Under the pieces are notes generated by a model. The model made no database searches. It was not told where the DNA came from and saw nothing but the letters and a program-made list of their open reading frames with translations. Shown piece after piece: positions 808-39,400 of a DNA stretch of 64,000 nucleotides. The DNA is from Dipodascopsis uninucleata var. uninucleata (Eukaryota; Ascomycota; Lipomycetes; Lipomycetales; Lipomycetaceae), in contig JAJLTO010000007.1 in NCBI GenBank assembly GCA_030568195.1, positions 1 to 64,000 of the forward strand. The letters are read 5' to 3'. Both the position numbers and the translations under genes were made by a program. Each line of letters begins with the position of its first letter. Position 1 is the stretch's first letter.

Positions 808-817
808 GCGGAACCGC
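808..817. promoter_or_regulatory. GCGGAACCGC palindrome upstream of the BVMO
   Basis: A perfect 10-bp inverted repeat containing CGG-N2-CCG. The same sequence occurs at 861-870 (opposite orientation), 9571-9580 and 9598-9607, so all copies found lie upstream of two genes in the same small cluster. Inverted CGG triplets are the usual half-sites of Zn2Cys6 dimers, and a Zn2Cys6 gene sits between the two enzyme genes. The link to that regulator is inferred. Confidence 0.45.
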
Positions 818-860
818 TTAACTACAATAAGTAAGGTTTATGATTCCTACGCGGATCGCT

Positions 861-870
861 GCGGTTCCGC
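861..870. promoter_or_regulatory. GCGGTTCCGC palindrome upstream of the BVMO
   Basis: Reverse complement of the element at 808-817. The related half-palindrome GCGGATCGC lies directly before it at 851-859, giving a compact pair of possible Zn2Cys6 sites about 515 bp before the BVMO start. Confidence 0.45.
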
Positions 871-1384
871 AGCATAATATTACAAATATTGTATTCACGC
901 GTCATCATATGAGCGGTGCGGGGTGGTGGGGTAATAGTGCGGATTTCATGGTCCCGTGCGGCTTAATAATTAAAGTATACCTAAAATAGTGCACTGAACT
1001 TTAAACGGGTACGCGATACCTTATTCGCTTCAACCAAGCCCTCCTATTATTATCATATTTCCAATACTTTTGCGGATCCGGCTTGATATCTCAAAAACAG
1101 GAGAAAAATTAGTTGAAGAGACTGGAAACACAGAAACATCTACTCCATAACCTGGTGTAACGTAAGAGGAGAATGGTGAGGAGAACGTAATGGTGAGGAG
1201 ATAGCAGGTACTCGACTTCTATACTTAAAGAGCCCATATACGATCTATTATTCTCTCTTTACTCAGAGGCGTCGATACTTCATTCACCGGAAAGTAATAT
1301 CGCTAAATCAAGATTACATAGTCAGCAACCGTTGCTAATTAAGCTTATCTTAAATATTACATTTGATTATCAATCGAATTAAAA

Positions 1385-3043
1385 ATGAAAGCAGAGCTCA
1401 AAGAATTCGCTACCAGACGTGGAACGACTGGTCCATATGCCGACAATTTAGACGTTGACGTTTTGATTGTTGGATCTGGATTTGGAGGCGTTTTTTGCTT
1501 GCATGAGCTTCGAAAGCGTGGATTCAAAGCAGTGATTTATGAAGCCGGCAACGATCTCGGCGGAACTTGGCGTTGGAATTGTTATCCAGGAGCAAATGTC
1601 GATTCAGAAGTTCCAGCGTATGAACTTTCAATTCCTGAGGTATGGAAAGACTGGACTTGGTCCACTAACTACCCCAACTATGAAGAATTGAGGAGTTATT
1701 TCGATCACTTGGATAAGGTCTTGGATATTAAGAAGGACTGTGCCTTTGACAGTGTTGTTGTTGGTGCTCAATTCAGCGAGCCCGAAGGTAAATGGTATGT
1801 CACGACTGAAGATGGCCGTGTTGCAAAGAGCAAGTACTTGATTGTCGCTGCTGGATTTGCGGCTAAGCGCTACATCCCAGACTTTAAGGGAATTGATTCA
1901 TTTAAAGGAGTAATTCATCATTCTTCTTTCTGGCCAGATGAAACTGTAGATGTCAAAGGAAAGCGATGTGCTGTAATTGGTACCGGTGCTTCAGGTGTCC
2001 AGATTGCACAAGCATGGGGACCAGTTGCAGGATCGGTTTCTGTTCTCCAGCGAACCCCTAATCTTGCTATCCCTATGGGCAAGAGGAGCTTGACTGCTAA
2101 AGAACAGAATGATTCTAAGGCATTCTATCCCGAATTGTTTGCTTACCGTGAGAAATGTTTTGGAGGTTTCTTATACAGTTTGGATGAAAAAAATACGTTT
2201 GACGACAGTCCCGAAGAAAGGGAAGCTCACTTCGAGAAATTGTGGCATCAGGGCGGATTTGCTTATTGGGTAGGAAACTATAAGGATATGCTTCTAGACG
2301 CCGAGGCGAATCGTGAGGCTTATAATTTCTGGGCTAAGAAGGTTCGCGCTAGAATTCAGGATCCCGTTAAACGTGATCTCTTGGCTCCACTTGAACCACC
2401 TCATCCGTTTGGTGTTAAGCGTCCCTGTCTCGAAAACAACTATTATGAGCAGTTCAATAGACCAAACGTTGACGTCATTGATCTTAACACAGCTGGAATT
2501 GCAGAAATTACTCCTACTGGTATCTTATTCACTGATGGTTCTCACCGTGAGTTTGATATTATTGCAGTGGCTACTGGTTTTGACATCACAACTGGTGGTA
2601 TGACAAGTATGGGACTGCGTAGTATTCATGGAACTACCATTCAGGACGAATGGAAAGCCGCTGCCAATACTTACCTCGGAACTACTGTCAGTGGTTATCC
2701 TAACATGTTCCATTTGTATGGACCACATGGACCTACGCTATTGAGCAATGGCCCTACAAGTATTGAAGTCCAAGGTCGCTGGATCGTGGATTGTATCAGG
2801 AAGATCGAGAAAGAAGGTTTAAAATATATTAATCCTACTCTAGAGGCTAGTAAGGCGTGGAAGAGAAGAATAAACGAGCTGTCTGACAAAACGTTGTTTC
2901 CTACTACCAGATCTACCTATATGGGTGGTAATGTTCCTGGAAAAGCTTTTGAGCCGGTGAATTACTCTGGCGGTATCCCCGATTATGCGCGCGAGATCAG
3001 AGATGCGCTCGATGACTGGACAGGATTTACTAAGGTTAAGTAA
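1385..3043 (+). CDS. Baeyer-Villiger flavin monooxygenase (cyclohexanone monooxygenase type)
   Basis: A 552-residue single-exon protein. An FAD-binding Rossmann motif GSGFGG lies at residues 30-35 and the NADPH-binding motif GTGASG at 199-204. Between them FKGVIHHSSFWP (173-184) matches the Baeyer-Villiger fingerprint FxGxxxHxxxWP exactly. Such enzymes insert one oxygen of O2 next to a ketone carbonyl, giving an ester or lactone, using NADPH. Length and motif order are normal for type I enzymes, with no signal peptide, so it is probably cytosolic. The start follows an A-rich context (AAAAATG). It is the first gene after the telomere and converges with the Zn2Cys6 gene downstream. With the esterase at 8008-9412 it could form a two-step ketone breakdown route. 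The substrate cannot be told from sequence; cyclic or aryl ketones are candidates. Confidence 0.92.
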   Translation: MKAELKEFATRRGTTGPYADNLDVDVLIVGSGFGGVFCLHELRKRGFKAVIYEAGNDLGGTWRWNCYPGANVDSEVPAYELSIPEVWKDWTWSTNYPNYEELRSYFDHLDKVLDIKKDCAFDSVVVGAQFSEPEGKWYVTTEDGRVAKSKYLIVAAGFAAKRYIPDFKGIDSFKGVIHHSSFWPDETVDVKGKRCAVIGTGASGVQIAQAWGPVAGSVSVLQRTPNLAIPMGKRSLTAKEQNDSKAFYPELFAYREKCFGGFLYSLDEKNTFDDSPEEREAHFEKLWHQGGFAYWVGNYKDMLLDAEANREAYNFWAKKVRARIQDPVKRDLLAPLEPPHPFGVKRPCLENNYYEQFNRPNVDVIDLNTAGIAEITPTGILFTDGSHREFDIIAVATGFDITTGGMTSMGLRSIHGTTIQDEWKAAANTYLGTTVSGYPNMFHLYGPHGPTLLSNGPTSIEVQGRWIVDCIRKIEKEGLKYINPTLEASKAWKRRINELSDKTLFPTTRSTYMGGNVPGKAFEPVNYSGGIPDYAREIRDALDDWTGFTKVK

Positions 3044-3681
3044 AAGCTTACTATCTCTGAGAGATAGTGCTTGTAGCTTACCGCCATTAGCAGGGTGTTT
3101 ACATATTGAAACATCTATTTTTGGGAAGTTTTGATTTTTTTCGCACGTTTCCATGTTTACTGAAAAAAAAAAAAAAAATTTCCAGCTGTTAGATGTTGCG
3201 ACTCAGCGATTTGTTTTGTCTAGTTCTGAAATATAATCTTCTCAGTATCATAGATTCTTCCCAGTTTTAAAGTGACCATTATAGTAACACTTTTGTTCCA
3301 CATGTATCTTTAGAAATATTTTCCATATTATTCGAAAGCATCGAAGATATCACGAAACAATAATTAGGAATTTGACGCTAAGAGAAGAACATGGCTTGCC
3401 GTAGCACATGACTTCTTAATATATAAATATATATACCTAACATTTATGATCATTTCATCGATAAATCAAATAATCGAAACAATTGCAAATAGCTTATACA
3501 AATCAACTGATTTACATAACTCATTAAATTAACGAGTGTTAATATACCAAATCTTAATACAATATGGATATAGATATAAAATGTTTATTGGAGCGCTTAA
3601 ATTGCTATTTTAGTATTGATAGTTTTACGATAATTATATAAGATGGCTGTTCGCGGATATATAAACGGTGATGTATATCAG
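3044..3681. other. Gap between convergent genes
   Basis: The shared 3' region of the BVMO and the Zn2Cys6 regulator. It is AT-rich, with a 15-16 nt A run near 3163 and several AT-rich stretches suitable for 3' end formation. No gene is seen. Confidence 0.7.
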
Positions 3682-6600
3682 TCAATATATAGGGGTAGCC
3701 AAGTTAAGTGACTGAGTATAAATATTACTCTTTTCTCTGAGAGAAGTCAGCAGAGCAGTAGCAGCCAAATGTGCTATGTCTGATTTCTTACCAAGGTACC
3801 ATAACGCTTGAATGCAGTATTCACACCTATCACGACGCTCTTCAATTTCAGTGGACTTGGAAGATATATCAGGCAGTGAATCTAGAAGAATATAGCCTGC
3901 TTTACCAAAAGATCGAATGAGAATTACAGTCCACGGCTCAGTTAACAAAGCAACCCGATTCAATGCAAAATGAAACTCAGAAGCCTGAGAAAATGTAGAG
4001 GTATCGCTAGGGCAAGAGCACTTTGCTAACTCCGATATAGCATAGGCATTTTGCTTCCGAAGTTCAGAACTCAGCAGTGACGATTGACGGAGCTTACGAT
4101 GTGACTTAAGACCCAAATCTTCTTTATCGATTTCATCGAGTATGTCAGCCAGTAAAAGTCCAGCTAGATGCCAGTGACCTGCTAAAACAATATACCAAGA
4201 TTGTATTCTAGGCGGCAATGAATGGTGATTGCTGATACAATCTCCGAAAAATTGACCATATGCCTTGTTCCAATGTCTGTAAACTTCGAACGATTCTTGA
4301 ATAGTATGCTCAATTATATGTGGCGTGGCTCTTTTATATGTGAGTTCCTGCAGACGAGTGACTTTTCGGAATAGCATAACTTTAATAGGTGCGGCATCAC
4401 AGAGCGTGGCTGCTGCTTGATCGTATGGACATGGCCAGCGAGGTATATGGATACCTTGACGAAGATTCTCCTGTTGCTTAAATAACAACACACCCCACAA
4501 ACTATTATCACTCTGTCTTTGCAAAGAGGATTCAGACCCTTCACTATAGCTTTCGTTATCAAATTTATTTGGACTTTGGTGCGCAATATTAGTAGTGGTG
4601 GACAAATAATCAATGTCACAGTCTTCATCTGGCACTACCAGGGGCCGTCTGTTCATCGCAGAAGATACAGTGTCAAACATGACACAAAGCCAGAATAAAA
4701 GGTTAAATGTCTTCCGATCTTCCAAGCATAGTGGATCCGTTCGAGTAGAAATCAAAATCGGATCATCATTAGTCATAACTCCTGAGTCTCGTAGATTCCT
4801 TGCTCGCTGCATTCTTAGTTTTTCCAGCTTTCGACTGCTGGAGAATATCTGTCGAAGAGCTGTTTCCAGAAATACTGGTGGACCCTCCAACTCAAAAAAC
4901 TGATCCAAGTCACTCATTGTCATACTGCTTTGCTCTTTAGAGTTAGAACTTGAATTTGATGATGCTGAGCAATTCTCAAATAGATCTGGTGAAAATCCAG
5001 TATCAGACTCAACTGAAGACTTTCTACAGGATTGCTTTGAATAAAATTGGCTTTTAGCCTTCAAAATCTGTACCTGCCGACTTATATCCTGTGGTCTCTG
5101 CGTTAACGAAAAAATGATATGGGCGAACACTACCCGAAAAGATTCGATACCGGCTGTATTCTGCAGCTCTTGCCGTGCTTGATTCCATAACGTCTCCTGA
5201 ATAAGCCGATCAAATTCCATATTTATGGAAGATAGAGGATCGCTGTCAGAATCCAGAGTAGCAGAACTGTCAATTGATTGTGAACAGTCTCCAGTATTCG
5301 AAGATATGCTCTCTGAAATATTGGAATCCTTGAAGGTAGGAAATTGAGAGACACTTCGATGACTAGATTGTGCCCATTGAGTAGCAAAAGCCAAAATTGC
5401 TAGATGCAGAGATTTTGAAACAGCAATATCTTCAGACTGTGTTAGAGGTCTTCCCCTTAATACAGAAGATACTCTGTCCAAACGACACACTCTCGCAAAT
5501 ATTCGATTCGACCAGTTGTGGCCCCATTCTCCCGTTTGCAACTCCTTAGACATAGGTCCTGCATTTACGAAAACAGATATGTCAGCGCTATATGGGCAAT
5601 TTCGTTCTGTTAACCAACAGGAAAAGGCATTTTCCACACTGTCATGATATATGCGAAGTAGTCCATGTGTAAGAAATGACTTATTTGTAGAGAATGACAA
5701 GTCATGCTGAGCTTCAACAAATTTTAATCCATATGGAGCCACATTTCGATGCGGCATATTCCGTCGATTATGACGGTAGCTATATCGCAGAGAGGGATCT
5801 AGGAAGCGGAGCCCAGGTTAGAAATCAAAAAACTTTCCTTGATAATTAAGGGAAAAAACTATGACATACCATCCTGGTTGTTACTATCTGCATCTTGGCT
5901 TGTATTACATGCATTAGACATATTGCGAAAGTCAAGTGATTCTTCATCCAGACTAGAATACTGAAGACAACCAAAAGCAGAATTTTCAAGGTTCAGCGAA
6001 GCTGCCTCCATTGATTCATCATACGAGTCATATTGATCAATAGAAGTGCCACTATTCCTATCATCACTATTACTGTCATTATCTTTAGTAATATCATTAC
6101 TGCTAGTGCTATTATGCAGTAGCTGTTGTTGCAGAAGCAGGTTACTGTGATTGATAGATTCTTCATTGCCCTGACTTAAACAATTTATGCTATCTGATTT
6201 TTCTGCGTATAGCGACTCCGTCGTATAAAGACCATCAAATAATGGCGGTGAAAACGAACATTCATTGAACAGCGTTGCTGGTGATAGAGATATAACATGG
6301 CTTCCGGTATCTAACGATTCTGAGGAGACTTCAACATGCCCTCTTGCCGAACCTTCGCGTTGTTTGCGATTTACTCCGTTACCATTGCTTTGCCGACTGC
6401 GACCTTTTAGCTTTTTAGCTTCTACAGTCTCCCTTTTTCTGCGAAATATCTCTTTTTGTGACCGTCGTAGCCATTCTATTGTACAATCTTTGCCAGTCTT
6501 TGTGCAATTAGTACAATGGACTACGGGGCTGACCATGTTCCAAGTTTGTCTATCTAATCCAGTATTCGCAACCTTAGCTCTTTGTTGTTATTTTGGCATA

Positions 6601-6870
6601 AAATCGAAGCTACAACGCTTCGACAGCAAGAGAAAATAAAATTAATAACATACCTATCACTGACGATCCATCAGTTACAGCTTCACGACTACCTTCTGCT
6701 GGAGATACTGCACTATTAGAGCTCCATAATTCATTTAGCAATGTTACATCGCAAGCACGCTTTCCCTTGCGACATTGATCACAGCTACGATGCTGTCTTC
6801 GGTTTGTTTTGAAGCTGCTACCCGCTTCCACCGAACCAATCCAATGTGTTGAATGCACCATAATCTTCAT
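3682..6870 (-). CDS. Zn2Cys6 fungal transcription factor, three exons
   Basis: Joining 6870-6654, 6553-5870 and 5798-3682 gives one 1005-residue protein. Intron 1 (100 nt) has donor GTATGT and acceptor TTAG. Intron 2 (71 nt) has GTATGT, a CTAAC branch site and CTAG. Phases agree at both junctions. The zinc cluster is CDQCRKGKRAC (Cys30, 33, 40) and CTNCTKTGKDC (Cys86, 89, 96), each C-x2-C-x6-C. A basic stretch and an Asn/Ser-rich acidic region follow. The third exon carries the conserved start of a regulatory region (YHDSVENAFSCWLTERNCPY) seen in fungal C6 factors. The loop between Cys40 and Cys86 is about 45 residues, far longer than the usual 5-12, and intron 1 falls in it. It is probably a nuclear, DNA-binding dimer. 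It lies between the BVMO and the esterase, so it may be their regulator; that is inferred. Confidence 0.85.
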
Positions 6871-8007
6871 ATCTCGCCTATAGTATTACTCTCAATGAAA
6901 TGAAAACCAGGAACATTTTTCTCTCAACGACAATATAACTAACTGATGAATATTAATTGATTTTTGTTTTGTAGATGTTTCTACGTATATGGTTTTGCAT
7001 GCAGCCTGCGGGGAAACCCGCTGATGCGGGGAAAGAAACCCTTATATGACGTCGAGTTTGCTGAAGTAGATAGTCAACTTCTACAAATCAAATGCAAAGT
7101 ATAGCTGACAAACATGGATAATGAGGAGTTCACTTGGGTTTGATTACAGTCCCATCATGTCCTCTAACTAGTATTGAGGCTTAGTACCCCAAAACTCAAG
7201 CAGGATACAGAAGAAATAATATTAAACTGACAAAACATCCGAACTGCATACATGTAACGAGCAACGCAGCCTCAAATATCAATTAAAGCCATCAAATACA
7301 TAACTAAATATATACCGCCATCAAACGATATCGTTTACGGTGGAGGACTGCTGGTTTTATATACAATAATATGTACTATACTCCGCTCTTTGGGACGTAG
7401 AATATGTAATGTTATAAGTCTACTACTAACTAATTCATTCATTCATTATTACCAAAAAGCAACATCGAAATCAGAGGTATGTATATCTATTGCATGACAG
7501 AGATAATCGGCCACGCTTTACTGCATTCCGATCTATTTGATAAGTCATCTAAAATCTCCTTTCGTCCCCACAGTTTATAATTACTATTTTTTTCTCTTTT
7601 TTATGTTAACAATAATAGTGTCGGCGAATCGGAAACAACGCAGTACACATACTGGATAGATTATGGAATACTAAATTAACACGAAATGTGTGCAAAATAG
7701 AAGCAATGTTACAACTGAAATAAATAAACATGGCTATTCAGATAATGGCTTTCCACTGGTTAAAGCGTCATTTTAAAATTCAGGCCAAAAAAGTTTAATA
7801 ATGGTAAAGAGGAGAGAGTATAGAACATCCAAGGAAAAAAGATAGAAATATACAGCAAATCTTAATACAAAAAACATTAGCCAGCTTATAGCCCAAATTT
7901 CGCTCAAATCTCAGACTGATGCTTCTTCTGGTGTACTTGTTTCGTTTCAAATCCTTGCATTGCGGTTGCTACTTCTCACTTAACATTTAACGGTTTTACC
8001 CAAAATT
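6871..8007. other. Promoter of the Zn2Cys6 gene and 3' side of the esterase
   Basis: No gene is seen. About 140 bp upstream of the regulator lies the palindrome GCGGG-GAAA-CCCGC (7008-7021), followed by another GCGGGG at 7026-7031. The rest is AT-rich without clear structure. Confidence 0.65.
7008..7031. promoter_or_regulatory. GCGGG/CCCGC palindrome with a second GCGGGG
   Basis: A perfect 5-bp inverted repeat with a 4-nt spacer (7008-7021), then GCGGGG at 7026-7031. GCGGGG fits the SYGGGG core bound by the glucose repressors Mig1/CreA, so glucose control of the Zn2Cys6 gene is possible. The palindrome could equally be an autoregulatory site. This rests on sequence pattern only. Confidence 0.35.
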
Positions 8008-9412
8008 TCACTTGCCGATTGCCTTATATACGGTAGATTCAATATCCACCCATAAGCCAATTACCTTAGCATCTACAAATGGTAGTACCTGACTACATAT
8101 AAAGCCTCCAACACCCTTTTCTCGATCACACCACCACCAAAGATTCGCTAAGCCTGCCCATTGTCCAGTACCTGAGGATCTCCCAGTAGCACCACCTGTA
8201 AGCATGAAAGTCAATCCCCATCCCTGGGGAGCATTTCCAGACAACGGGTATACATCTGGGATAGCATTCGTAAGCTCAGGCTTAGCATCCGGAATGCCTT
8301 TACGGCCGAAGTTAGGAAAATTAGGAATTTGATTGCGAAACATTTCGTCTACAGTAGATTTCTTAAGTATCTGAGCTCCAGTAGCTGGAGACGTACCGTC
8401 ATTTAGCAAAGTAGAAATAATACCTATGAAATGAAAGCGTGAGAATAAGGCAATAAACTAAACAAAACAGTATTCTTAGAACTTACGACCATACTCTTGT
8501 GGTTTTGCAAAGCAACCAGCGCCTCCACTGTTGAAACAAGATTTAACTTCGCTACTCTCAATGATCAAAGGTCGACGCAGAAGATGATCATTTGGTTCCA
8601 TCTCTCCATTGGAATTACGATAATTCATATGAGCCAATTTTGACTTCATCTCTTCATTAGGAAACATCGAAATGTTTTTGATTCCTAGCGGCTTAAACAC
8701 GTTCTCCTGCAAGTAGTCATTGAGCGAGAGCTTAGTAGCCCGCTCAAGAAGAACACCAGCCCAGTCAATATTAATCTATTCGCCTCCGAAGTTAGTAAGA
8801 CAATACACGATGTGGAAATAAAAACAGGGAGAGAGAACATACACCGTATTCCCAAGACTCTCCAGGATGATGAACTAACGGCTGCATCATGTCGTATATG
8901 TGTCCAGAGAACTCATCATAGCCAATTGGCTTGCTATAGTCACGCAATTTGCTATTGAAAAAAGTATATCCAAATCCAGCAGTATGCGTAAGAAGCATCC
9001 TCAACGTAATTCTGTTTCTTTTTTCAACCAGTGTTCCATCTTCCTCCAGCACCTTGACTGCTTTCAGTTCAGGTGCTAGCTTTTCTACTTGATCTGCATC
9101 ATCCAAAACCAGAATACCTTGTTCAACAAGTTGCATACAAGCAATTCCAACAATCATCTTCGTGCAAGACGCAATCCAATATATATTTTCAAGCGTCATA
9201 GGCTCATCGCTTGAAACCCCTCTTTTCCCTGCTGCATGCGCAAAAAGCTCACCATCCTTCGATACAACTACGACTGTAGTTCCTGGGATCCCAGTGATTG
9301 AATCTGAACATGATTCCTCGGTCAGTGCTTTCAGCGTAGAAACTGTTTGAGCACTTAATGTAGCCATCTTTTCTTCGTTAACTTTACGCCTAATAGATTT
9401 TTTAATCCACAT
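8008..9412 (-). CDS. Beta-lactamase-fold serine hydrolase/esterase, three exons
   Basis: Exons 9412-8843, 8775-8487 and 8423-8008 join in phase to 424 residues. Introns are 67 nt (GTATGT, branch CTAAC, ATAG) and 63 nt (GTAAGT, ATAG). The SxxK motif SCTK at residues 82-85 gives the nucleophile Ser and its Lys partner. The conserved Tyr of WEYG (189) ends exon 1, and the third exon has the fungal family's GWGLTFML and TGQWAGLANLWWW blocks. This family (EstB/LovD-like, class C beta-lactamase fold) in fungi contains esterases and transesterases rather than antibiotic-degrading enzymes. A second ATG at 9367, giving 409 residues, is an equally good or better start; the longer form adds a short basic N-terminus. 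Two GCGGAACCGC palindromes lie 160-195 bp upstream. Hydrolysis of the ester made by the BVMO is an attractive but inferred role. Confidence 0.87.
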
Positions 9413-9538
9413 CCGATACGAATAATATCGTCGAAAAATCTCTTAAAGCCGGCTCATCAATGAACATATTTATAGCTGTACGACGGATTTTCATATCCCT
9501 CTTCGCAACTTTCATCGAAGTCACGTTTTAACTCCCAG

Positions 9539-9607
9539 CTGTGGGGAAATCCTTATGAAAATTTGATTCCGCGGAACCGCGAAATTAAATCTAATATGCG
9601 GAACCGC
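9539..9607. promoter_or_regulatory. Promoter site cluster of the esterase: GTGGGG, TTCCGCGGAA, two GCGGAACCGC
   Basis: CTGTGGGGAAATC (9539-9551) contains a Mig1/CreA-like GTGGGG core and recurs exactly at 24064-24076. TTCCGCGGAA (9567-9576) contains TCCGCGGA, the sequence known in yeast as the Pdr1/Pdr3 response element. It overlaps GCGGAACCGC (9571-9580), and a second GCGGAACCGC follows at 9598-9607. The same 10-mer is found upstream of the BVMO, which argues for common control. Confidence 0.5.
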
Positions 9608-9609
9608 TG

Positions 9610-9816
9610 CTAGTCATGTGAGCTGATCAGCTGACCTGCAAAAGTAATAATCAGATACACAACGGCCGGAAGGAAAGACAATGCAATAGCAGGCATGTAC
9701 AGAAAATCAGGAAATAAGCCGATGAAGAACATAAGAATGAGAGTAAGCCAAAGCTCCTGAGACTCCAAACAACTGTATGCTTCATTGTATATGGTCTGAC
9801 GTGTTAAGAGTCGCAA
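9610..9816 (-). pseudogene. Possible relic of a Pmp3/SNA-type small membrane protein
   Basis: An open frame without ATG reads SCLESQELWLTLILMFF, resembling the second membrane segment of the Pmp3/UPF0057 proteolipids (C..DLWLTLILT). In the next frame over, the sequence after it reads VHACYCIVF, where the family has HAFY. The split between two frames and the missing start suggest a decayed copy. The upstream part is not recognisable. This could be a coincidence of hydrophobic sequence. Confidence 0.3.
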
Positions 9817-12800
9817 TTCCTAAAATCTACCATTTGTAACCTTAAGAATACATTGGCTTTACTTCAGCCGTTTTAAAATTAAGGAGAGCAAAACGATCAA
9901 AGGTCGGTCGTCTTCTCTTTTTGTTGTCGCCGGTATCAATAGCTATGACTATAGCCACTATTTGTATCTCCTTAATTTTGCCTACGTAAGATCTTTACAA
10001 GGTAAAAAAATGCTATTCAACTAGGCCATTATAAATAATGATACTGGATCATACATATGAAAACAATAAAATTTGTTCTATTTAATGTTATAATGCGTAT
10101 TTTAACAACTAATATCTAGTCAATTCTATATTACTGTTCCATGCTCCCTGCAATAAATTGGAAGCCCACTATACGTTAACTTGTTTCGATCTGGTGCAAT
10201 ACAAACGTAATCGAACTGAATAAATATCGTCAATTTCTCTATCGCGTACTCGAAAATAGTCCGATAACTATAATCAATATACTCTTAGTAGTACCTAGGA
10301 AATTGCACTCGCATCACCCAAAGTCACCCTAAACTCTCAAGGCGGAACTAAAAAACTTCGAAACTGACGTTACTGTCTCTTCTGCGATGCTTGCGCCTTC
10401 ACCAGTTAGAATACCATCACCGCCGTTCTAAAAGTGTCAAATGTGTTCCATAACCCACTACTTTCCACAGTCAAATGCATAATGAGTTTGGCGCTCTGAA
10501 TTGTACTCAGACAATACATAACCGCAATGGCGTAAGCCCTTCGCTGCCCAATAATCTCTGATTCGGTACTAAAGATCGATGACATATAGACAGGGTAGAA
10601 ATGAAACTCTGAATAAGTTCCAGTTTGAACAAACAGCGCACTACACCAGAGTTTAAGATCCATGATAAAAATCTGCATCGGTTGTACATCTGCCTATAGT
10701 AGCAGGGACATAAGATGATGTAAACCTCATTTTTCTGTCCCTTGATGTGTCAAATCATGTCCATAAGTCTCAATAATATCCTGTTCACATGCTGGAAGAG
10801 CTGCAGTCCGGATGATGAGACTACCTCGCATGCATAAACCGATTTGTCTCATTCACTGCTCTAGTTTACGCTTGTATCTGAGCTAAGAGAAAAAACCCAC
10901 ATCTGATCCCAGTCATATGTGAAAGGCATGAAATAATACCCATTAACATTTTTAGTACAATGATCAGTGACAAGATCTTTCTACTTACAAAATTAGTGAT
11001 CACGATTATATCTGGGCCAATGTAGCACCACGAAGATATTCGATAACCTGTGCATCCAGCGAAAGCAGCGCAGGTGGCTTATCTCTAGCATCCTCCGTTA
11101 GATCAAAATATTGCCTATCTTGTCGTACAAAGTATTTGAATATGAACAATCGAATTCGTCGAATTAATTGCAGGTCGGCAAACGAAAGCAAAGCATTGTA
11201 AACTAAATATCTTACAGATTAGAGTACACCAAGAAGGAAGTGCTAAAGAGTAAATTCGAATGCGACTGAGCATATAATCATATGAATCTGGACCATCAAG
11301 GGATGCTTGCAAACAAGGAGCACACAAAATCTAGAAAGCGAGATAACTGAGACAACATATAGCGGTAAACATGGAGCCAACGAACAATAACTATGCTCAT
11401 TCTTATTTAGAAATTCAATTTAATCAATTCCCTCGTTGATTTCGGAATTACTTCTTCAGGCTCCGACTGCTGGATTACGATAATCATAGGATTAGAATGC
11501 TCAAATCCTTGTATTCTGAAGGAATTTGCCTATTGTTCAGATTGCGTCTCTCAAGCAACTATAACACACTTAACGGAGATATCCAAGGGTCCAGTTCGAA
11601 ATCGGAATTATATTGGGCAAATTGTGGACGATTTAAAAAGCTTGATCGTTTGAGATCGAAAAATGAGTAGTAATCGCCTACTTTCCTCATCAGTTTCGAG
11701 TACAAGCCAGTTTCAAGGATCGTTCCATGCAACATCATAGCAGTTTTTTCTTTATTGTTACTAGACGATAAATCAGAGGCAAAGATGATAGATTGACTAT
11801 TTCAAGTATTTAATGCATACAATCTCACTCTGAAGTATCTAGCGCTGAAGTGGCCCGTCTAAGTAGGACAATCTTAGAATTTGATAACAGCACGCATAAT
11901 ATCTACACGTTGCTTCTTCCAGAAAAATAAAAATTCGCGTTCTACAGCATGCTCTTGTAAACCTAGAGGCAGCTTTCAATGAATCTAATGCATTTGCCTG
12001 CTTTGCCTGCTTTGCCGGCCGCGTTACCATTGCTAACACGTCGATTGGCTTTACTCGGCAATCGAAAATCTCAAAGATTCCTACCGACAGATCAATCTGC
12101 TATGGCACTTCCAGCATCTCATCCTTCTCTCATGTCTGAGAAGCCATTGCTAGTGCAGTATATGTATCACGCCGTTTTTTGGACTTGATACTGCTGACTA
12201 CCTTTGATTCTACCTTCACTCGAGACGCTATTTTCAATTTTAGCGCTAATGACAAGATTGGCTCAGATACTATTAACTCCAAATGCTACGATTTGGTTTT
12301 AAAGCTAGATATCGCTCACTTCTTCAGTAATATTTCGAGTCAAGAGCAATGACGGCAAATCCAATTCATCTATGGAACTATGTTGAGCCGATTTATGATG
12401 GATGATAGTCCATTTGGGTTGGTTGACAATACTTTGAAAGAGACTATATTTGTCGTAATTTTCCATAAAGATATGCTCTTAAGCTGAGGCACAACTTGCG
12501 GAAATTGAGATACGTTTGAGCAGCTCTCAAGCAAATCACGGCGGCGAGGGTCATCAAGCGGTGCTAGAAACAAAACTTTGCATCAAAGCTGTCATTTTGT
12601 TTGATTAAGCGGCACCTCATTTAGTATCAAACTAAAGATTTCCTATTATTATCATAAATACACTTATTTATGTAAACAACTAATTATATTCCAAATTATG
12701 GTCCTTGAATTCAAAGCTCATAACATGTCACATACATACAAAATGCTACCTGTATCAGCTCGCAATCTAAAAGGTTAGCTACACGTGTATTCTGCCATAA

Positions 12801-13797
12801 TCGATGCGATAGCCAGCTTTCAAGATCGTGGAGAGACCTTACCCATATGACTTTGATCAAGCACACCGTTTGCTCGTATACTAAATGAACATCGCACTAA
12901 CACTATTGCAAAGTCGTGATAAGGTTATCTGGCCACTGAAAGATTTTGCCAATGAGTAGCATGAAGCTATAGACTAGCAGAATACTAGTCAACTGATTCG
13001 CCCATTTAGTGCTCATAAAATCTGCCCGAAATTTAACCATTTGAAATGCTACACTAATTTATAGGGTAAGATGTTAATTTTACCGAAAGAATACTGAGAG
13101 ATGGCGATTGTAACCCAGAGAGATCAGCCAGGGACATTAACTTAAGCATAATGCAAGAACTTCGATACATGTGGTGGTTAATTTAAGCCCACATCGACTT
13201 GATGCATTAATTGTGCAACAACGTGCATAGTTCAATGCACAATTCTCACCATTTGTTATATTTCTGTTGATATTAAAGATACAACGTCAATGAAAGAATA
13301 TAGAAACATAATATTAAATTACTTCCGATACCATTTCCGCTATGATATATGTAGTATTTGACTGTCAAGTATGTATAAAGTACACAGCCTATATCTCTAT
13401 CTACATAACCTTAACGGATTTTAAGTCCACAACCCTATATAAATCTGGTCTTATCTACCCTTAACCGTTGAGGTACTGGAAAGGTCCTAAACTTAAAATT
13501 AAATTTTTGATGTTTTTAAAGTTGAGAATGCAGCATCAAGCTTTTAGTAATTAATCGTCTGTCATACTTGCTCTTGTTAGTCTCTGCTACTGTCCTGTAA
13601 ACGAAACCAGTACTTATGTGTCTCTAGCTGGTCATCAGGTGAAGAACTATCATTAATTTACTCTTTATCAGCTTGCTCCACAGCTTTTCCTACATCTTTT
13701 CCTATAGTCTTTTCTGTACTCCTAAAAATTTTAACCCTATGAAAAATCGGCCAAGTTACATTCTTCACCTCGCTAATTTATCTTACTAATATCTGCT
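9817..13797. other. 4-kb gene-poor tract with decayed coding pieces
   Basis: No intact gene. Protein-like frames occur on the minus strand at 10406-11330 (separate entry). A short TTTGCCTGC duplication lies at about 11993-12012, and an 8-bp inverted repeat ATTGTGCA/TGCACAAT at 13210-13243. The last 200 bp should hold the promoter of the acyltransferase gene at 13798. Confidence 0.6.
10406..11327 (-). pseudogene. Decayed coding sequence, family not recognised
   Basis: Three neighbouring minus-strand frames look protein-like, but no single frame or simple splice joins them. 11327-11115 includes DSYDYMLSRIRIYSLALPSW. 11191-11006 includes RQDRQYFDLTEDARDKPPAL. 10678-10406 includes DLKLWCSALFVQTGTYSEF. 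The order is co-linear, and a GTAAGT follows the middle piece. This could be a disrupted regulator or transporter gene, or a multi-intron gene whose splicing I cannot resolve. I do not recognise the family. Confidence 0.3.
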
Positions 13798-28769: not shown

Positions 28770-29622
28770 TAAACCCGGGCTATCACATTAATCTCTACTC
28801 TGTTTATAGAAAAAAATTTTGATTTAGTTTATAGATATTAGAAATGACCATCTGAAGATTCAAATGCTTTCATGATAAAATATTTAGCAAATAGCAGTTG
28901 AGTGTTCTAAGAAACTTCAGTTATGTGGTTGGCAAGACTGTAGTAGACGTTCGACAGGAACTGAATCCATCATTATTGTAGCATTTTTCATTGTTAGTAC
29001 ATTAGATCCACGCAAAACAGCAAGGTTATGTTGTGACACCAATAACTCGATTGACCTTTAATATTAACAAACAATTAGGCAACTAGGTATACTTCGCCTT
29101 GTAAGTGTATTCCACATCGATATCGTCTACACACTCTGTTATTGAGAGGGTCTGGGTAAAAACCTGACAATATTAGCTCGTGGCTTTTAAGCATCCTTTA
29201 AAATTTTAGGCTAAATATTCTACCCCTACTTCCCCACACCCCAACTTTACACAGATACTTGGACTATAACGACTACTTACATGTTTCACTATTGGATCAT
29301 ACAAACGATTTAATGGTATTTCAACTGATATTAAAAGTATTATAGAATTAAAGAGGACTCGTGAAGGTAAAGAAGGGTCAGTAGAAAAGTATTGTCGTGA
29401 AAAATTCGCGAAAATAGACCAGCTATCAGACCTTACTCTCAGAGCGGCATTTGACATGGAGTATATTATTACACTAAGAAACGTCACTACAATGCTATAA
29501 ACAAGAGTAGATCAGTAATTGATATAAATTAGTTGATAGATAATCGTTCTATTCGTTCTACTACAGCTTCTCGATAAATAGAATGAAATTTACGTCATCT
29601 GAATGATAGTAACTGCACCAAC
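28770..29622. other. Gap before the C2H2/Zn2Cys6 regulator
   Basis: The 3' flank of GH127 and promoter of the regulator. A minus frame at 29206-29487 has no family resemblance. No gene is called. Confidence 0.65.
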
Positions 29623-32600
29623 ATGACTGAAAATCATGCGAACAATTCATCGTCGGAATTGACACCACCCCTCATTTCTACTCATACTGAATCACGGTCT
29701 GATACGAATTGTCCCGCAAATAGCTCAGATGAATTAGTATCGACGAACGAAAATACCACATCCAAACCTGGCAGTAAGAAACCATCTCTGACTAAAGCAT
29801 TGTCAATTTGTTCTACCTGCCAGAAAGCTTTCAGACGACCCGAACATCTCAGACGACACGCTAGGACTCATCTTCCAATCAAGCCATTTCCTTGCTCAAT
29901 ATGCGGAAAAGCCTTTGCACGAACAGATATCTTGCACAGACATGAGCAAAATCACACGAAGCGGCATCAGGAGCAACTACTTGCTGCGTTTAGAGCCTGC
30001 TTGTCATGTGCACGATCTCGAGTGAAGTGCAGTGGAGGCAGTCCTTGCTCTCGCTGTACCAAGTGTTCAACTCAATGTCAATACCCATCGTCGGATGGAA
30101 AGCAAGCACTGGATTCGGCTGATATGGATAATAGTGCTGTTAGCATAGCACGAGAAGGTGGACCAGCCGCCAACAACTTATCTAACTCTTCGCCTGGAGT
30201 CCAGCGCACAATGAGTGCTACTTTGGAGAAAAATGATATTTTCGCAAATGGACAAGATGTTGGATTATCACAATCACGTAAAAGGTCGATAGATACTATT
30301 CAGCATGATAATATTGTTACAGATACAATTGCTACGGAGCAATCACCTACTGCGACGAGTGCATATTATACTCAGCCTTCAGATGGTCATGGTATCGAAG
30401 TGGAATCTATCAACTGGCTACCACTTCATGTATTGACATCATCTCAACAAGACATTAATTTTGACAGCGATAGCTATTTAGCGTCGCTAATTTCAGATTG
30501 GTTCCCTTCAGAAATGCAAAATACGGCCACTATTGTTGTTGAAGCATCAGGAAATCCCGCTCAGGTGCAGCATTTGTCGCCTACTGAATATCCAGTTGAT
30601 CTAGCTAACGTGGATAATTCAAGCATCATAGCAGATAGTAGTTCGTCACCAGCGCTCACTGTATCTGCAACAGATGTGAGTGATTCATCATTTGGTTCAC
30701 TCTATGTAGATGGTGCCGCCATCAGACGAACTGCTCATAGAAAGGTAAAGCGACCAAAAGTTAAAATATTAGATTGTAATTCTTCTATGGATCACACGCA
30801 ATCAGAGAATGAGAGTTCCCTGCTGTTCTGTTTTCCAGACAATGTCCTTATGGAATCTGAATTACAAAGTAATGAATATTGCGAATGGATAGGATCCTCG
30901 GTATACAAGAGCGCAGTGCAACAGTTTGAAAATCTCTGTTGCAGCTCTATCGGACTTTTCAGGCCATTTCGTTCAACGACTTTTCCATCACTCGAAAATT
31001 TTAACATTTGCATTTCTCTATACTTCAGTAACTTCAATATCGCATTTCCTGTCGTGCATAGGTACACATTCGATAATGCGCGCTCGCTGTGGCTTATTTC
31101 ACTTGCACTCGCTGCAACTGGTTCTGCTTTCCTTACAGTACCTGAGCAAATGCAATTCTACGAAGCATTTCAAGAATTCCTTAGACGTGCAATAATATAT
31201 GTGATAGAATATGGCGATTATGATCATTTAGAGTTTTCTCAAGTTCTCTTCCTTAGCATGGTTGGTTTATCGCAAGGACAGAAGGTATTGAGATCAAAAT
31301 CAGGTCCATCTCAGACACTTCTGTACAACTTGTTACTCAGAGACGACTTTCCGGATTCTAATGAAATGTCTGTTTCGTCTTTCGTTAAAGACAAGAAGCA
31401 AACATGGATGAGATGGATCAGGCAAGAGACCAAAAGGCGTCTATTATATTGTTCTTGGATAGTTGATAGTCTTCTCGCTCTCCAATCGAATATATCACCA
31501 CAAATGATGGGAGTTGTTTTGGAAGTTCAATTGCCTTGTTTGGATGCTCTCTGGGATGCTTCTAATGAGGAAACGTGGGAGCGACTTTTCCAAGTGCAGG
31601 AGCCAATGCCATCTCTTAATAAGGCATTACAGTCGTTATACCTTCAGAATAAGCTATTAATTGGTTTTTCCGAACTTTCACATATGATTCTTGTATATGG
31701 TATATGCGAAAGAACACAACAAATAGGAAAGCACTTGCAGCTGCCAATGGCAAGATGGATTCCTACTGGTTCTAGCAATAAAATGAGGAGTGTAGCTGAA
31801 GATCCGCCTAACTGGCTGCCTTCGGATCCATTGTACTCTCGATGGCGAAATAGTGCACTCGATTGTCTTGATGTAATACATTGGTATGCTAACAGTATAA
31901 CTGCTAAGGGATCGGGCCTTGAGCAACCTCTTATTCTACATCTTCATTTATCTCGAGTTCTTTTATTGTCTCCTTTGCATGAGATACTTGACCTTATTGG
32001 GCATCTCTTGTCAGACAAGTTTTCTGGAGAGCGTGAATATTTTTTCGCAGCTCGCTCTTCGAGACAAGTTCTTCGAGTAATATGGAGATGGCTGTACCAG
32101 GACCAGCACAAAGCACGACTTTGTCTGATACACGCTGGCGTTATATTTTGGCATGTTCGCAGGTATTCAATTTGTAGTTTCTTTGAGCCGGCGGCTTTGT
32201 TCCTCGCCAGTGCCGTTCTATGGACTTATAGCTGTTATAACACGACAGGTTCTGGACCAACTATACTAAATCAAAGAGAAAAGAACGTCACGAATACAGT
32301 TTCCGTAAGTACAAATATACTTAACAAACGATTGGATATATTTAGCTAATTTCGATGTTTCTCGACACGTACTTTAATTATAGGAGAGCATAGACGATGT
32401 AGAAACCTTAGTAGATGCTCCTTCCTTTATTCATTTGGATAGGCCATGCGACGATGAAATTGTTCAGATATTCGTACGGCGCGGACACACGATGCAGGGT
32501 CATATATCTGGTGTTGGGAATATATGCTCACCTGGGGCACCCGCTCGCATTCTGAAAGAAGGCATAAGACTGCTTGATTCTGTCGGCTGGGAATGGGGTA

Positions 32601-34620: not shown

Positions 34621-36480
34621 CTATGCTGGAGAGTAGGATCCCTTAGACTTTTGCATCTCAATTGTGTACCTCTCTCCAAACTTTCCCAGTTGTTCTGCAA
34701 CTATCTGAAGAGCAACAATTTTAGAGTTGAATCTAGAAAGAGGAAATGGTCCAACCATGAAATATACTCCAGGAATTCCACAGTCTCGATAGCAGGAGTT
34801 CAATTCAGATTCCTCATCTAATCCCCAGATCTGTTTAAGAGATTTTGTCGCATTATCTCCTAATGTTTCAGCACATGACTCTTCGAAACCACAAACTCCT
34901 GTAGCGAATATAACAACATCGGCATTAAGGGATGAACCATCTTTAAATACAACAGATGTCTCAGTAAAATGATCTATTTCGCTTCCCTGAATCTTAATAT
35001 CGCCATTGACAATCCGCTTTGAAGCACCAGAATCAAAATAGTATCCTCCATTTCGTTGCATCGACAAATACAAATGTCCCGAACCGTGAGGTCCAGACCA
35101 GGTTTTAAAGCCAGCTTTGTTTAAACCGTCAAGAAGGTCTTTATCCATATCAGCAATAACAGGTATTAGATTTTTAAGATAGGCTACTGCAACGCTCTTA
35201 GGGACTGTCTCAGTAATAAAATCTGCATCTTCAAGAGGTGGACCATTGTCACAGTACAAGCCTTTGTTCAAGGTATCAATTCCATTTTCCAAAGACATAA
35301 CAAATGTACGAGAACGCTGGAGTAATGTCACGTTGGCGCCATTGTTGGCAAGATCAACTGAAATATCATGGCCAGAAGAGCCAGATCCGACTACGAGAGC
35401 CGTTTTGCCTTTATATGGCGCACTAGACTTATGGCTGAAAGCATGCATGATGATATTTTTGAATTTCTCCTGACCTGGGAAAGGAGCTGGCATTTTAGGC
35501 TTGCCGCCTCCTAAACCAGTAGCCATGACAATATGAGAGACTTTGAACTGATAAGGTGTAACACCATTACGCAACACTGTAACATTCCATATTTTCCTGT
35601 CCTTATCGTAGAAGGTTTCATTCTTAGCAACGTAGCTTGATGACCAAACATTAATTCCCATAATGAGCGCGTAAGACTCAAGCCAATTGCCAAGTCTACC
35701 AGCTGAGAGATACTTTGGAAAAGACGTTGGATATTGAAGATAAGCGAGATTGGCACCCCATATAGAGTCTTGGAGAGCAAGAGAAGGGTATCTACTTCTC
35801 CAATTGTCACCTACACGACTGTTCTTATCAATGACAAGATTGCGCACGCCTAATGCATTCAAGCGAGCAGCTATATTAAGACCATTGTGACCACTTCCAA
35901 CAACCAGAACAGTCGGTTTGGGATTTTCGACTTCTTCTTGACGTTGCTGGTCATAGGTTTTGGCATGATTGTGCCCACCTTCTGGTCTGTTTTCTAAGAT
36001 GTGTTCTGGATGGCCATGAATGCGATCGATGGTAGTCAGAACAACAAAGGCTTTCCACTCTCCACTAGATACTTTAACGAGCCTAGCTACTCCAACCGCA
36101 GATCCAAGCTTAATATTAAAGCGAAACTTGACATTGATAAATGTATGGCCTGGAAATGGTTGCCTAATACTTGGCTCTCCGTCGATCTCCGTGTCACTGG
36201 CGCCAGTGATAGCAAGTCGATCCGTCGCCGCCTGGAATATATTAGCCTTAGTTATTGCACGGTAGTCGTTAGTGAATGCAATTATATCACGCCAACAACC
36301 GCCTTCGCAAAACAACTTCTCATAGGCGGCAGCGTTTGAAGACGAGACTGCGTTGTCGAAGGCAGTAATCCATTTATTAGAATTCTCCCTGATATGTTCC
36401 TTATTTGTTAGCTCTGATTCCGTAAAGAAATCCTGAGGAATCTTATATTCAGGATTACTGGCGTATCCAACTACCACCAT
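34621..36480 (-). CDS. Flavin-containing monooxygenase with NTF2-like N-terminal domain
   Basis: Started at the first ATG (36480), the protein has 619 residues; the frame stays open a little further upstream but without an ATG. Residues about 25-165 look like a SnoaL/NTF2-type domain (KWITAFDNAVSSSNAAAYEKL, then a long beta-rich part). The FAD motif GSGHNG follows at 195-200. The FMO middle region has HIVMATGLGG. The NADPH motif GSGSSG lies at 365-370 and the conserved VIFATG near the end. The arrangement matches the fungal branch related to YUCCA and indole-pyruvate monooxygenases, which oxygenate soft nucleophiles or alpha-keto acids. It is probably cytosolic. Large gene-free tracts flank it on both sides, giving no cluster context. 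The substrate is unknown. Confidence 0.88.
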   Translation of the reverse strand: MVVVGYASNPEYKIPQDFFTESELTNKEHIRENSNKWITAFDNAVSSSNAAAYEKLFCEGGCWRDIIAFTNDYRAITKANIFQAATDRLAITGASDTEIDGEPSIRQPFPGHTFINVKFRFNIKLGSAVGVARLVKVSSGEWKAFVVLTTIDRIHGHPEHILENRPEGGHNHAKTYDQQRQEEVENPKPTVLVVGSGHNGLNIAARLNALGVRNLVIDKNSRVGDNWRSRYPSLALQDSIWGANLAYLQYPTSFPKYLSAGRLGNWLESYALIMGINVWSSSYVAKNETFYDKDRKIWNVTVLRNGVTPYQFKVSHIVMATGLGGGKPKMPAPFPGQEKFKNIIMHAFSHKSSAPYKGKTALVVGSGSSGHDISVDLANNGANVTLLQRSRTFVMSLENGIDTLNKGLYCDNGPPLEDADFITETVPKSVAVAYLKNLIPVIADMDKDLLDGLNKAGFKTWSGPHGSGHLYLSMQRNGGYYFDSGASKRIVNGDIKIQGSEIDHFTETSVVFKDGSSLNADVVIFATGVCGFEESCAETLGDNATKSLKQIWGLDEESELNSCYRDCGIPGVYFMVGPFPLSRFNSKIVALQIVAEQLGKFGERYTIEMQKSKGSYSPA

Positions 36481-39400
36481 AGTGACTTCGAGTATGTAAG
36501 ATTTCAATGACAAGGAATATGCAGTTGCAGATAATGAATACTCATTCAATACTTAGAATATATGCTTGTTTCTAAAAAAATTATGTCATTGAAGTACTTC
36601 CTGACATGAAAGACGCTGGCCATTCCTATAGCTCTATAAAATGCACAAGATAGAAGCATATGACATGAACTTTTCATTAAATGAATACAGGCTTCTAAAA
36701 CCAGTCTATGCCAAGCTATAACTTTTTATTCCCATTAATTAGGAGAACACGATGTTCAGAGAAAGAATCCTTGGATCTCTGATATAGTGGACAATAGTTT
36801 AGCTCAATTCGAATTAACAGTAACATAAAACTAAATTTTAAGTTGGCGCAATTTTAAGCTGTCATAATGGCCTCATATAATCCCAATCACAATTGCTAGA
36901 CTTTCTCCTTTAAGTAGGCAAGCACCGAACAGCGCTCCACTCATAACTGGAGAAACTTTATGGTCAAAATATTGAATAGAATAATATTAAAATGTTCGCT
37001 TGAGAACGTCTACAAAAGACGGTGTGGCTCATACATAACGTCCGAGAAATACAACAAAAGAAGATCAGGTTCCTAGTCACATGTCCTATTATAGCGGGCA
37101 GGACCATTTACATTATGATTGACGGTAGCTGTAGGCAATGTGCACGGGAAAGTGCATGATTGTAATCTCTGGTAACTAAGTATATCGTAGTAGCTCATCT
37201 TTATTACAGAGATAAAGGTAATGGGTGACTAGGGGGGACAAGTCAAGTAGTTTGTACTCATTGCTTTCATCTGTATATCATTAACAGAATCGCGGAGGCT
37301 AATCTTTGTTATCATACAGAAAAGATGTGTTCAGAAGCATCTATGACAAATTGCCAAAGAAATTTATAGGTGTAATTGTGCTCTGGTACAAGCTGCCTAT
37401 CAGAGTTGCTTCAGTAGACAGCGTTTAACTCCATCCTTGAGACTGAAGCTTGCAGGTTTATTTTTACAAATAGAGTTACACTCCAACCTCGTGATTACGT
37501 AGAGGACCAAATGCCTTCATCTGTGTCTCAGTGTCTTCCATTCCTTTCTACCGATTGTCGAGTATATAGAGACTCAAACAGTATAGGCTGTACATTGACT
37601 ATAGACGACCCTTTTACTAATAGGTTTTGTCATGGAATGGCGACCATGTCTGTTATCTGTTGTATTTTCTATCGTACACATTCATAATAATGTCGTCCGA
37701 CTGAAATTTAATAGTTCCCGAGTCATCTCCAGCATCTCAATAGTCCTTGAAGACAGAGAGACATTTCTGTTACGATGACGCTGCACACTGCAGCAGGAGC
37801 CATCGTTGATCCCATCAGCTACAAGTCATATCGTGAGTGCAGTCAACCAATATGTTACCAGAGTTTTAATGTAATTGATATCTATCATCTGATATCAGGT
37901 TTTTTTAAGAATGAATGTTGACAAGTATACGGTGTGACTGTTCTTGCTGCGCTTCGTTGATTTTAAAAAAACCAGAACATATCTATGAGGAGAAACTACA
38001 GCAGACCTTTAAATTTGAAAACTTCAGATTCTCGTAGTTCTCATCCCTGGTAGGTTAACTCATCGGTAGAGGCATGATTTACAACAAAGTTATGCTATTA
38101 TACGCAGCTATTTGGACAATATAATGACTATTCAGATTACAGGAAAAGCATCCAAGATGTCTGAGGAAATGAACTTTTCATAATTCCTAGATGATTCATA
38201 CTTGTACAACAGATTTGGCCACTTAAATTCAGTATTAATCAAAAGGTGGCCGTAATAACCAAATCCTGTTCGGGTAAGCTATTTTAACCTGATCCGTATG
38301 GCCGTAGCCAGTAACGTCACTTCTAGGTTTCTTGCTGTTGTGCAGTCATAATTCCATATTTCTATTCTATTCGCTAGTTATATGTTATAGTTCACATAAA
38401 ACCAGGATTGGTGATAATATATGCAGTCTTTACGATATTAGATGCTTTTATGTCTTCTCATCGAAACCAGAGAAGGGCTAACAAGTTACGAACATCTAGG
38501 AGTCCTGAAGGAATAATAGCTAGAGCGCATTGACAACCGCTATTAGTAGGAAGCTAAGATTACTTAGGACTCTGAGCTAATGCCTATACTTGTTAAGAGA
38601 AAGCGACGATTATTGGAACCAAAAATGAAGTTATTATATTGAAGCGCACGTAGTCAATATTCACTCTGATTGAGATCTGTCTAGTAGAGGAGAATATAAC
38701 CAATGCCGTTTCTGATAATTCTTCGGTTTAGGGCTATATCCTCAGGACCATATTAGATGTAGAAACGTGGGGTATTCAATTTTGTTAGTTCTAGCACAAT
38801 ACGTACGGTCTGCACTGTGGAAGCTCATCTGATAAGACAAGAATGTTTACTTACATCCTTTTAAAATGTCATGGTCTCTTTAGATGAAATATTGAGTCAT
38901 AAGACCATATAATATAATATAATATGCTAAACTCATAAGAAATTAGAGTTCAAATGGAATAATACTACATCAGCAATTGTGCGCTACATGTGTGGGTATA
39001 TCCTAGTCCATAAACTTGCTAACAGGTATATGTTCTAAATATTACCTAATTCCTTTGGGTCTGAGACAGTTCATAAATATAGGTAATATTGTTACTTCTG
39101 TGAGCATTGCTGATTCTTATTGTATAGCTGTTGTAGAGAAAGGAGATAGCGACGATATTTTTGGAAGTACCACAATTTCAGAACTGAGACTGCTTGAATA
39201 GAAGCGGTCGACGAGTAGACTGAAATTATTAGTGGAAGATGAACTCTCTCCTGAAGACCGTAAACTAAACTTGCAAGGAATGTTAAAACACTGTTAGATT
39301 AGTTTATTCTAGGAAGGCTAAGATGAATTTCATAATAAAGGGGGATGGCAGTTGGCTGCTCCAGAAAAATCAAGTGGATGCGCATTAATAAGGACATATG

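Follow-up and report, generated by a model that had tools for sequence, protein, structure and literature searches.

Introduction

AlcR of Aspergillus nidulans is a textbook fungal switch that also serves as an expression tool (PMC10526403). It is listed with the half-site TGCGG and the inducer acetaldehyde (PMC12941744), is described as a monomer on DNA (PMC5559640; PMC4360782), and carries before its zinc cluster a basic stretch that takes part in DNA binding (PMC4360782). AlcR boosts its own expression (PMC10526403), and on ethanol it occupies the promoters of alcR, alcA, alcM, and alcS as well as those of 58 further genes (PMC8844935). Acetaldehyde induces the alc genes, as does 2-butanone, a non-physiological inducer (PMC5371717; PMC1794588; PMC10878826), and AlcR has been counted with those regulators that are poorly conserved in filamentous ascomycetes (PMC3998117). 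Here, we compare AlcR and the alc cluster with a locus in the first 64,000 nucleotides of contig JAJLTO010000007.1 of Dipodascopsis uninucleata var. uninucleata (hereafter the window). In this locus the gene for an AlcR-like Zn2Cys6 regulator lies between genes for a type I Baeyer-Villiger monooxygenase (BVMO) and a beta-lactamase-fold esterase, next to a telomere. Its sequence suggests that an AlcR-type activator probably controls the BVMO-esterase pair as a local ketone pathway, together with its own gene. The literature retrieved on AlcR together with Baeyer-Villiger chemistry consists of one aflatoxin review (PMC7150809), in whose excerpt alcR appears merely in a table. The genes of the locus are:

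1385–3043, plus strand: type I BVMO, 552 amino acids, intronless, with a Pfam FMO-like match and the BVMO fingerprint
3682–6870, minus strand: AlcR-like Zn2Cys6 regulator, 1005 or 994 amino acids, exons 6870–6654, 6553 (or 6520)–5870, and 5798–3682, assigned by its match to AlcR
8008–9367, minus strand: beta-lactamase-fold esterase/transesterase, 409 amino acids, exons 9367–8843, 8775–8487, and 8423–8008, with PF00144 and SCTK at residue 67

The initial annotation of this DNA had already placed a Zn2Cys6 gene between two enzyme genes, and the three-exon minus-strand gene at 6870–3682 confirms this. The introns of the locus genes are short, with GTATGT donors, which together with the small size of the genome is in keeping with an ascomycete, perhaps a yeast.

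A Regulator Related to AlcR

Judged by its DNA-binding domain, the regulator is AlcR-like. When residues 1–132 of the spliced protein were compared with all PDB sequences, AlcR of A. nidulans (1f4s, 1f5e, 2alc, 3alc) was matched in both halves of the cluster (E 1.8e-7) and was the sole convincing hit, the next fungal factor being LAC9 with an E value of 1.5. The aligned identities (17/27 and 10/21) include the basic RRQ stretch before the first cysteine; two of the 17 fall in what is probably the cloning tag of the solved AlcR protein. In the reverse search, pieces of the AlcR domain retrieved from the genome this regulator gene alone at E ≤ 1 (E 1.2e-6). Zn_clus matches at E ≤ 0.001 number 67 in this genome, and a paralogue of the regulator was absent from it at E ≤ 1. 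Intron 1 interrupts the zinc-cluster loop, and exon 1 alone stays under the Pfam Zn_clus cut-off (15.9 of 21 bits). One splice acceptor decides between 994 and 1005 amino acids and the cluster reads CX2CX6C-X34 or X45-CX2CX6C, with the long loop that is typical of AlcR-type regulators. The initial annotation had called this loop unusually long, and long it is (34–45 residues); it fits the kinship with AlcR, where the loop has 16 residues, though it is longer still.

By sequence, the regulator combines the reciprocal domain match and the preceding basic stretch with repeated TGCGG in the promoters of its proposed targets and half-sites in its own promoter. As in the alc cluster, the regulator gene adjoins its proposed target genes, and ketones are known to induce alc genes (PMC5371717; PMC1794588). 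The two systems differ in their targets, which are BVMO and esterase here and alcohol and aldehyde dehydrogenases there; BVMO and esterase are the neighbors of the regulator, and the linkage to an alcohol dehydrogenase that marks an alc regulon is not found at the locus. The length of the loop, a repeated inverted palindrome with an N2 spacer, and the position beside a telomere further set the locus apart.

AlcR-Type Half-Sites in Three Promoters

The half-sites of AlcR have the form (T/A)GCGG. Sites of this kind occur upstream of all three genes (no strand is given for palindromic or mixed sites):

807–818: inverted pair of (T/A)GCGG half-sites, N2 spacer, TGCGGAACCGCT, BVMO promoter
860–871: inverted pair of (T/A)GCGG half-sites, N2 spacer, TGCGGTTCCGCA, BVMO promoter
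912–961, plus strand: four direct-repeat half-sites at 912, 917, 938, and 957
1071–1080, plus strand: half-site TGCGG inside TGCGGATCCG, overlapping the CGGATCCG of the initial annotation
7007–7029: three half-sites, TGCGG-N6-CCGCT-GA-TGCGG, upstream of the regulator start, proposed autoregulatory site
9570–9581: palindrome CGCGGAACCGCG, same core, flanks C/G instead of T/A, esterase promoter
9597–9608: inverted pair of half-sites, N2 spacer, TGCGGAACCGCT, esterase promoter

The palindrome GCGGAACCGC had been reported at 808 (+), 861 (−), 9571 (+), and 9598 (+), solely upstream of the BVMO and the esterase, and all four coordinates as well as this restriction are right. Dinucleotide shuffles of the window contain on average 0.02 copies, compared to the four observed. 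A genome-wide count, which the initial annotation had proposed, returned the same four copies and no others in 16,219,245 bases on 25 contigs (reversed-pattern control, 6), so that the 10-mer is not common elsewhere. For the degenerate form GCGGNNCCGC, 41 sites were counted in the genome (33 for the reversed control), and the four at the locus are the sole ones with an AA/TT middle. The 8-mer core CGGAACCG by itself is no rarity, with 108 copies in the genome (275 for the reversed control); what stands out is therefore the complete 10-mer and the way its copies cluster. If flanks were random (~20% G or C), simple arithmetic predicts about four copies of GCGGAACCGC among the CGGAACCG cores outside the locus, 104 in number, where none is found; a mild genome-wide avoidance of the 10-mer is possible.

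The palindrome can be read as two facing GCGG half-sites two bases apart, and three of its four copies would then be perfect (T/A)GCGG pairs. Further half-sites, which the initial annotation had not listed, are present at 912, 917, 938, 957, and 1071, and as the triple at 7007–7029. The CGGATCCG that had been noted at 1073 is present, while CGGNNCCG as such is ordinary (six in the window, 2.47 expected, and 6/100 shuffles reach six). For WGCGGNNCCGCW, three of the 16 sites in the genome are at the locus. Leu3-type sites (CCGGNNCCGG) also contain CGG-N2-CCG, but the flanks of the present palindromes are G and C instead of CCGG. Leu3 itself reads everted CGG half-sites, according to a title in the reference list of PMC5559640.

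The BVMO promoter contains nine (T/A)GCGG half-sites at 807–1075 (~270 bp), four of them in two inverted N2 pairs and the other five single or in direct repeat. At the background density of 2.13 per kb, 0.62 would be expected, and 0/5000 dinucleotide shuffles of region 800–1090, which has 42.6% GC, reach nine. The rearranged motifs WCGGG, WGGCG, and WGGGC occur three, two, and four times in 130–1384. Among 1845 overlapping background windows of 600 bp, 0.2% reach nine half-sites. The background of 209.5 kb comprises 45 loci picked for related CG-rich sites (centre masked; L010 and L011 overlap) together with L052, L053, 12.6 kb of contig C23, and window positions 9701–64000; any other locus that overlaps the cluster, C23, or the window is left out. 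The triple before the regulator lies 137 bp upstream of the ATG, and the esterase promoter combines one T/A pair with a second copy whose flanks are C/G. Within 600 bp upstream, the BVMO has nine half-sites, the regulator four, and the esterase two, and the signal is strong by count only at the BVMO. The pair structure is a stronger test than the half-site count: inverted pairs with a spacer of 0–10 occur six times in the whole background and in 3/3 promoters of the cluster, compared to 1/11 other window promoters (hand-picked genes, a subset of those in the window) and 0/2 promoters of a second BVMO-esterase pair on C23 (see below). The arrangement varies from promoter to promoter, with N2 twice at the BVMO, N2 at the esterase, and an inverted N6 next to an everted N2 at the regulator, plus the direct repeats. 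A 16-mer before the regulator has one exact match in the genome and four more with two mismatches, which carries little weight since any 16-mer is rare.

Beside the esterase, about 4 kb (9610–13776) are without a long open reading frame in the lists of such frames and contain three (T/A)GCGG at 12497–12612. At 9567–9576, TTCCGCGGAA forms a perfect palindrome that overlaps one of the palindrome copies; it resembles a pleiotropic drug resistance element.

The Enzymes and a Second Gene Pair

The identities that the initial annotation had given to both enzymes are well supported. The BVMO is one intact frame of 552 amino acids with two Rossmann motifs (GSGFGG and GTGASG) and the fingerprint FKGVIHHSSFWP, which conforms to the type I pattern FxGxxxHxxxW[P/D]. 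In sequence it is 69.5% identical to the solved BVMO 6y48 over 551 residues, nearly the full length. This structure is presumably that of an Aspergillus flavus enzyme that oxidizes methyl ketones; the literature search for 6y48 together with Baeyer-Villiger monooxygenase returned nothing. A recent transfer of the gene from bacteria was considered and rejected, as the best 80 of 223 prokaryotic relatives are 42–48% identical, vs 69.5% for 6y48.

The esterase matches PF00144 with an E value of 1e-20 on exon 1 and carries SCTK (SxxK) at residue 67, as expected of the class C beta-lactamase fold. Its best solved relatives are LovD-type transesterases, with which it shares fold family and SxxK motif, but the similarity is only moderate (best E 3.6e-41). 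The enzyme may act by hydrolysis or by acyl transfer.

A genome search with each enzyme led to a second neighborhood at C23:11441–24000 (loci L055, L051, L059, L062, and L064), which contains:

C23, frame end 12074: aldehyde dehydrogenase, PF00171
C23, 12803–14764: a different BVMO-like gene in three pieces, 31% identical to the window BVMO in the longest match
C23, 18138–16766 (including stop-to-stop flanks): esterase, PF00144, 74% identical to the window esterase
C23, 21559–18908: OPT oligopeptide transporter, PF03169

The fingerprint of the second BVMO-like protein, FKGHRVHSANW, lacks the final P/D. Both esterase copies found in the genome thus lie within ~5 kb of a BVMO, though the two BVMOs are far diverged, which supports a working BVMO-esterase pair. 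Three weaker BVMO matches (on C12, C21, and at C7:35299) are flavin monooxygenase-like, and the stretches examined contain no BVMO fingerprint.

Of the left end of the window, positions 1–128 (no strand assigned) are an array of the unit CTATGTAACC. The same 10-bp repeat array occurs on at least eight contigs, including C7, C9, and C11, each of which starts with it, and C12, which ends with it, and because it recurs at several contig termini the left end is a telomere. As a literature string, the 10-bp unit TTACATAGGG yielded no telomere-themed title among the matches listed. Farther into the window, the regulator gene at 29587–32349 encodes a protein in which C2H2 fingers precede a Zn2Cys6 cluster and a fungal transcription factor domain, and adjoins a sugar transporter and a GH127 arabinofuranosidase. 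The gene at 34621–36552 is flavin-binding monooxygenase-like; its FMO match begins only at about residue 190–250, and the BVMO fingerprint was searched for in it and not found.

Weighing the Explanations

The initial annotation had proposed a single ketone-use regulon with CGG-N2-CCG as the operator of its regulator. The first part stands insofar as the sites are confined to the locus and positioned in the way that a local regulon needs. The operator is not borne out in that form: the regulator is AlcR-like, and the element common to the three promoters is the (T/A)GCGG repeat in varied spacing and orientation. An ordinary Gal4-type dimer that reads CGG-N2-CCG as a fixed operator would explain four identical CGG-AA-CCG palindromes at two promoters, but we consider it unlikely, given that AlcR, which the domain resembles, is described as a monomer on DNA (PMC5559640; PMC4360782), that the half-sites in the regulator's own promoter are spaced otherwise and include no CGG-N2-CCG, and that five further half-sites at the BVMO lie outside the N2 pairs. 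Nor does it seem probable that another Zn2Cys6 protein reads the palindrome while the AlcR-like gene plays no part or regulates other genes. The 67 Zn_clus matches of the genome speak for such a protein, as does the overlap of one palindrome copy with TTCCGCGGAA, which resembles a pleiotropic drug resistance element; yet the 10-mers are limited genome-wide to the promoters of the two genes flanking the regulator and fit the half-site of its nearest characterized relative. The second gene pair points the same way: it lacks the palindrome, and there is no second AlcR-like gene, and therefore the sites are tied to the regulator and not to BVMO promoters generally. Subtelomeres evolve fast, and one background locus of 56% GC reached eight half-sites in 272 bp, so that chance or functionless GC-rich sequence has to be considered; with nine half-sites that no shuffle reproduced in a region of only 42.6% GC, and a 10-mer absent from the remaining genome, this is very improbable.

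The alternative that retains some plausibility accepts the regulon and questions its purpose, in that the BVMO and a transesterase-like protein may tailor or detoxify a larger molecule instead of serving ketone use. It draws on the LovD-type relatives of the esterase and on the occurrence of Baeyer-Villiger steps in secondary metabolism too (PMC7150809). Against it, no synthase-type biosynthetic gene was detected among 10 further window proteins scanned, and the second copy on C23 is accompanied by an aldehyde dehydrogenase; we regard it as possible, with the odds against it.

Control of a local ketone pathway by an AlcR-type activator, the reading that we prefer, has to accommodate several observations that weigh against it. 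The loop of 34–45 residues is far longer than that of AlcR, and AlcR has 62 targets on ethanol (PMC8844935), whereas the regulator is considered here at its own locus only. Neither an alcohol nor an aldehyde dehydrogenase was found among the window proteins scanned. The palindrome copy at 9571 has C/G and not T/A flanks, WGCGGNNCCGCW is not enriched genome-wide (16 sites vs 16 in the reversed control), and of 14 TGCGG triples in the genome (control, 6) one is at the locus. By half-site count the regulator promoter is modest (three; 3.3% of shuffles reach this) and the esterase promoter unremarkable (two; 34% of shuffles), while the background has dense spots of its own, the richest 272 bp holding eight half-sites and the richest 600 bp ten. 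The promoters of the C23 pair lack the palindrome altogether. In bacteria, an esterase homologue beside a related BVMO was found in 0/80 loci at E ≤ 1e-3 (BVMO control, 80/80), 56 of these loci being 11 kb or longer; at E ≤ 10 just two weak matches appeared, and a crude motif count gave alpha/beta-hydrolase-like frames in 12 of the 56.

Proposed Circuit and Its Significance

The presence of AlcR-type sites at all three genes suggests one small, self-amplifying ketone-use circuit. Observed are the identities of the genes, the positions and rarity of the sites, and the relationship of the DNA-binding domain to AlcR; binding, activation, inducer, and metabolic direction we infer. A ketone would enter the cell while the regulator is at a low level, and either the ketone itself or one of its products, for instance an aldehyde, would activate the regulator. 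In its active state the regulator would then occupy the clustered (T/A)GCGG half-sites, and BVMO, esterase, and regulator would rise together, with positive feedback through the regulator's own gene; the half-site triple before its start predicts such autoregulation, as in AlcR. The BVMO would convert the ketone with oxygen to an ester or lactone, and the esterase would cleave an ester to an alcohol and an acid. As a speculation, butanone would in this way yield ethyl acetate and then ethanol and acetate, joining the physiology of AlcR.

Within one genome, the locus provides a contrast between one BVMO-esterase pair with regulator and palindromes and one without, and it offers a compact, possibly ketone-inducible promoter set. 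In the excerpts of the papers concerned, the response of AlcR to ketones is termed gratuitous or non-physiological without a stated reason (PMC1794588; PMC10878826; PMC5371717). An AlcR-type regulator between a BVMO and an esterase would be a natural case in which the ketone is a substrate, and the question of the ligand becomes testable. It is conceivable, though we hold it to be unlikely, that true ketone sensors of BVMO-esterase pathways are found among the AlcR-type regulators or were their ancestors. In that case the "gratuitous" action of 2-butanone on the alc genes of Aspergillus would go back to a ligand that is ancestral or parallel, and the ketone would be a real substrate in D. uninucleata, whose oxidation and hydrolysis, in the case of butanone, would give the ethanol and acetate that feed the alc pathway.

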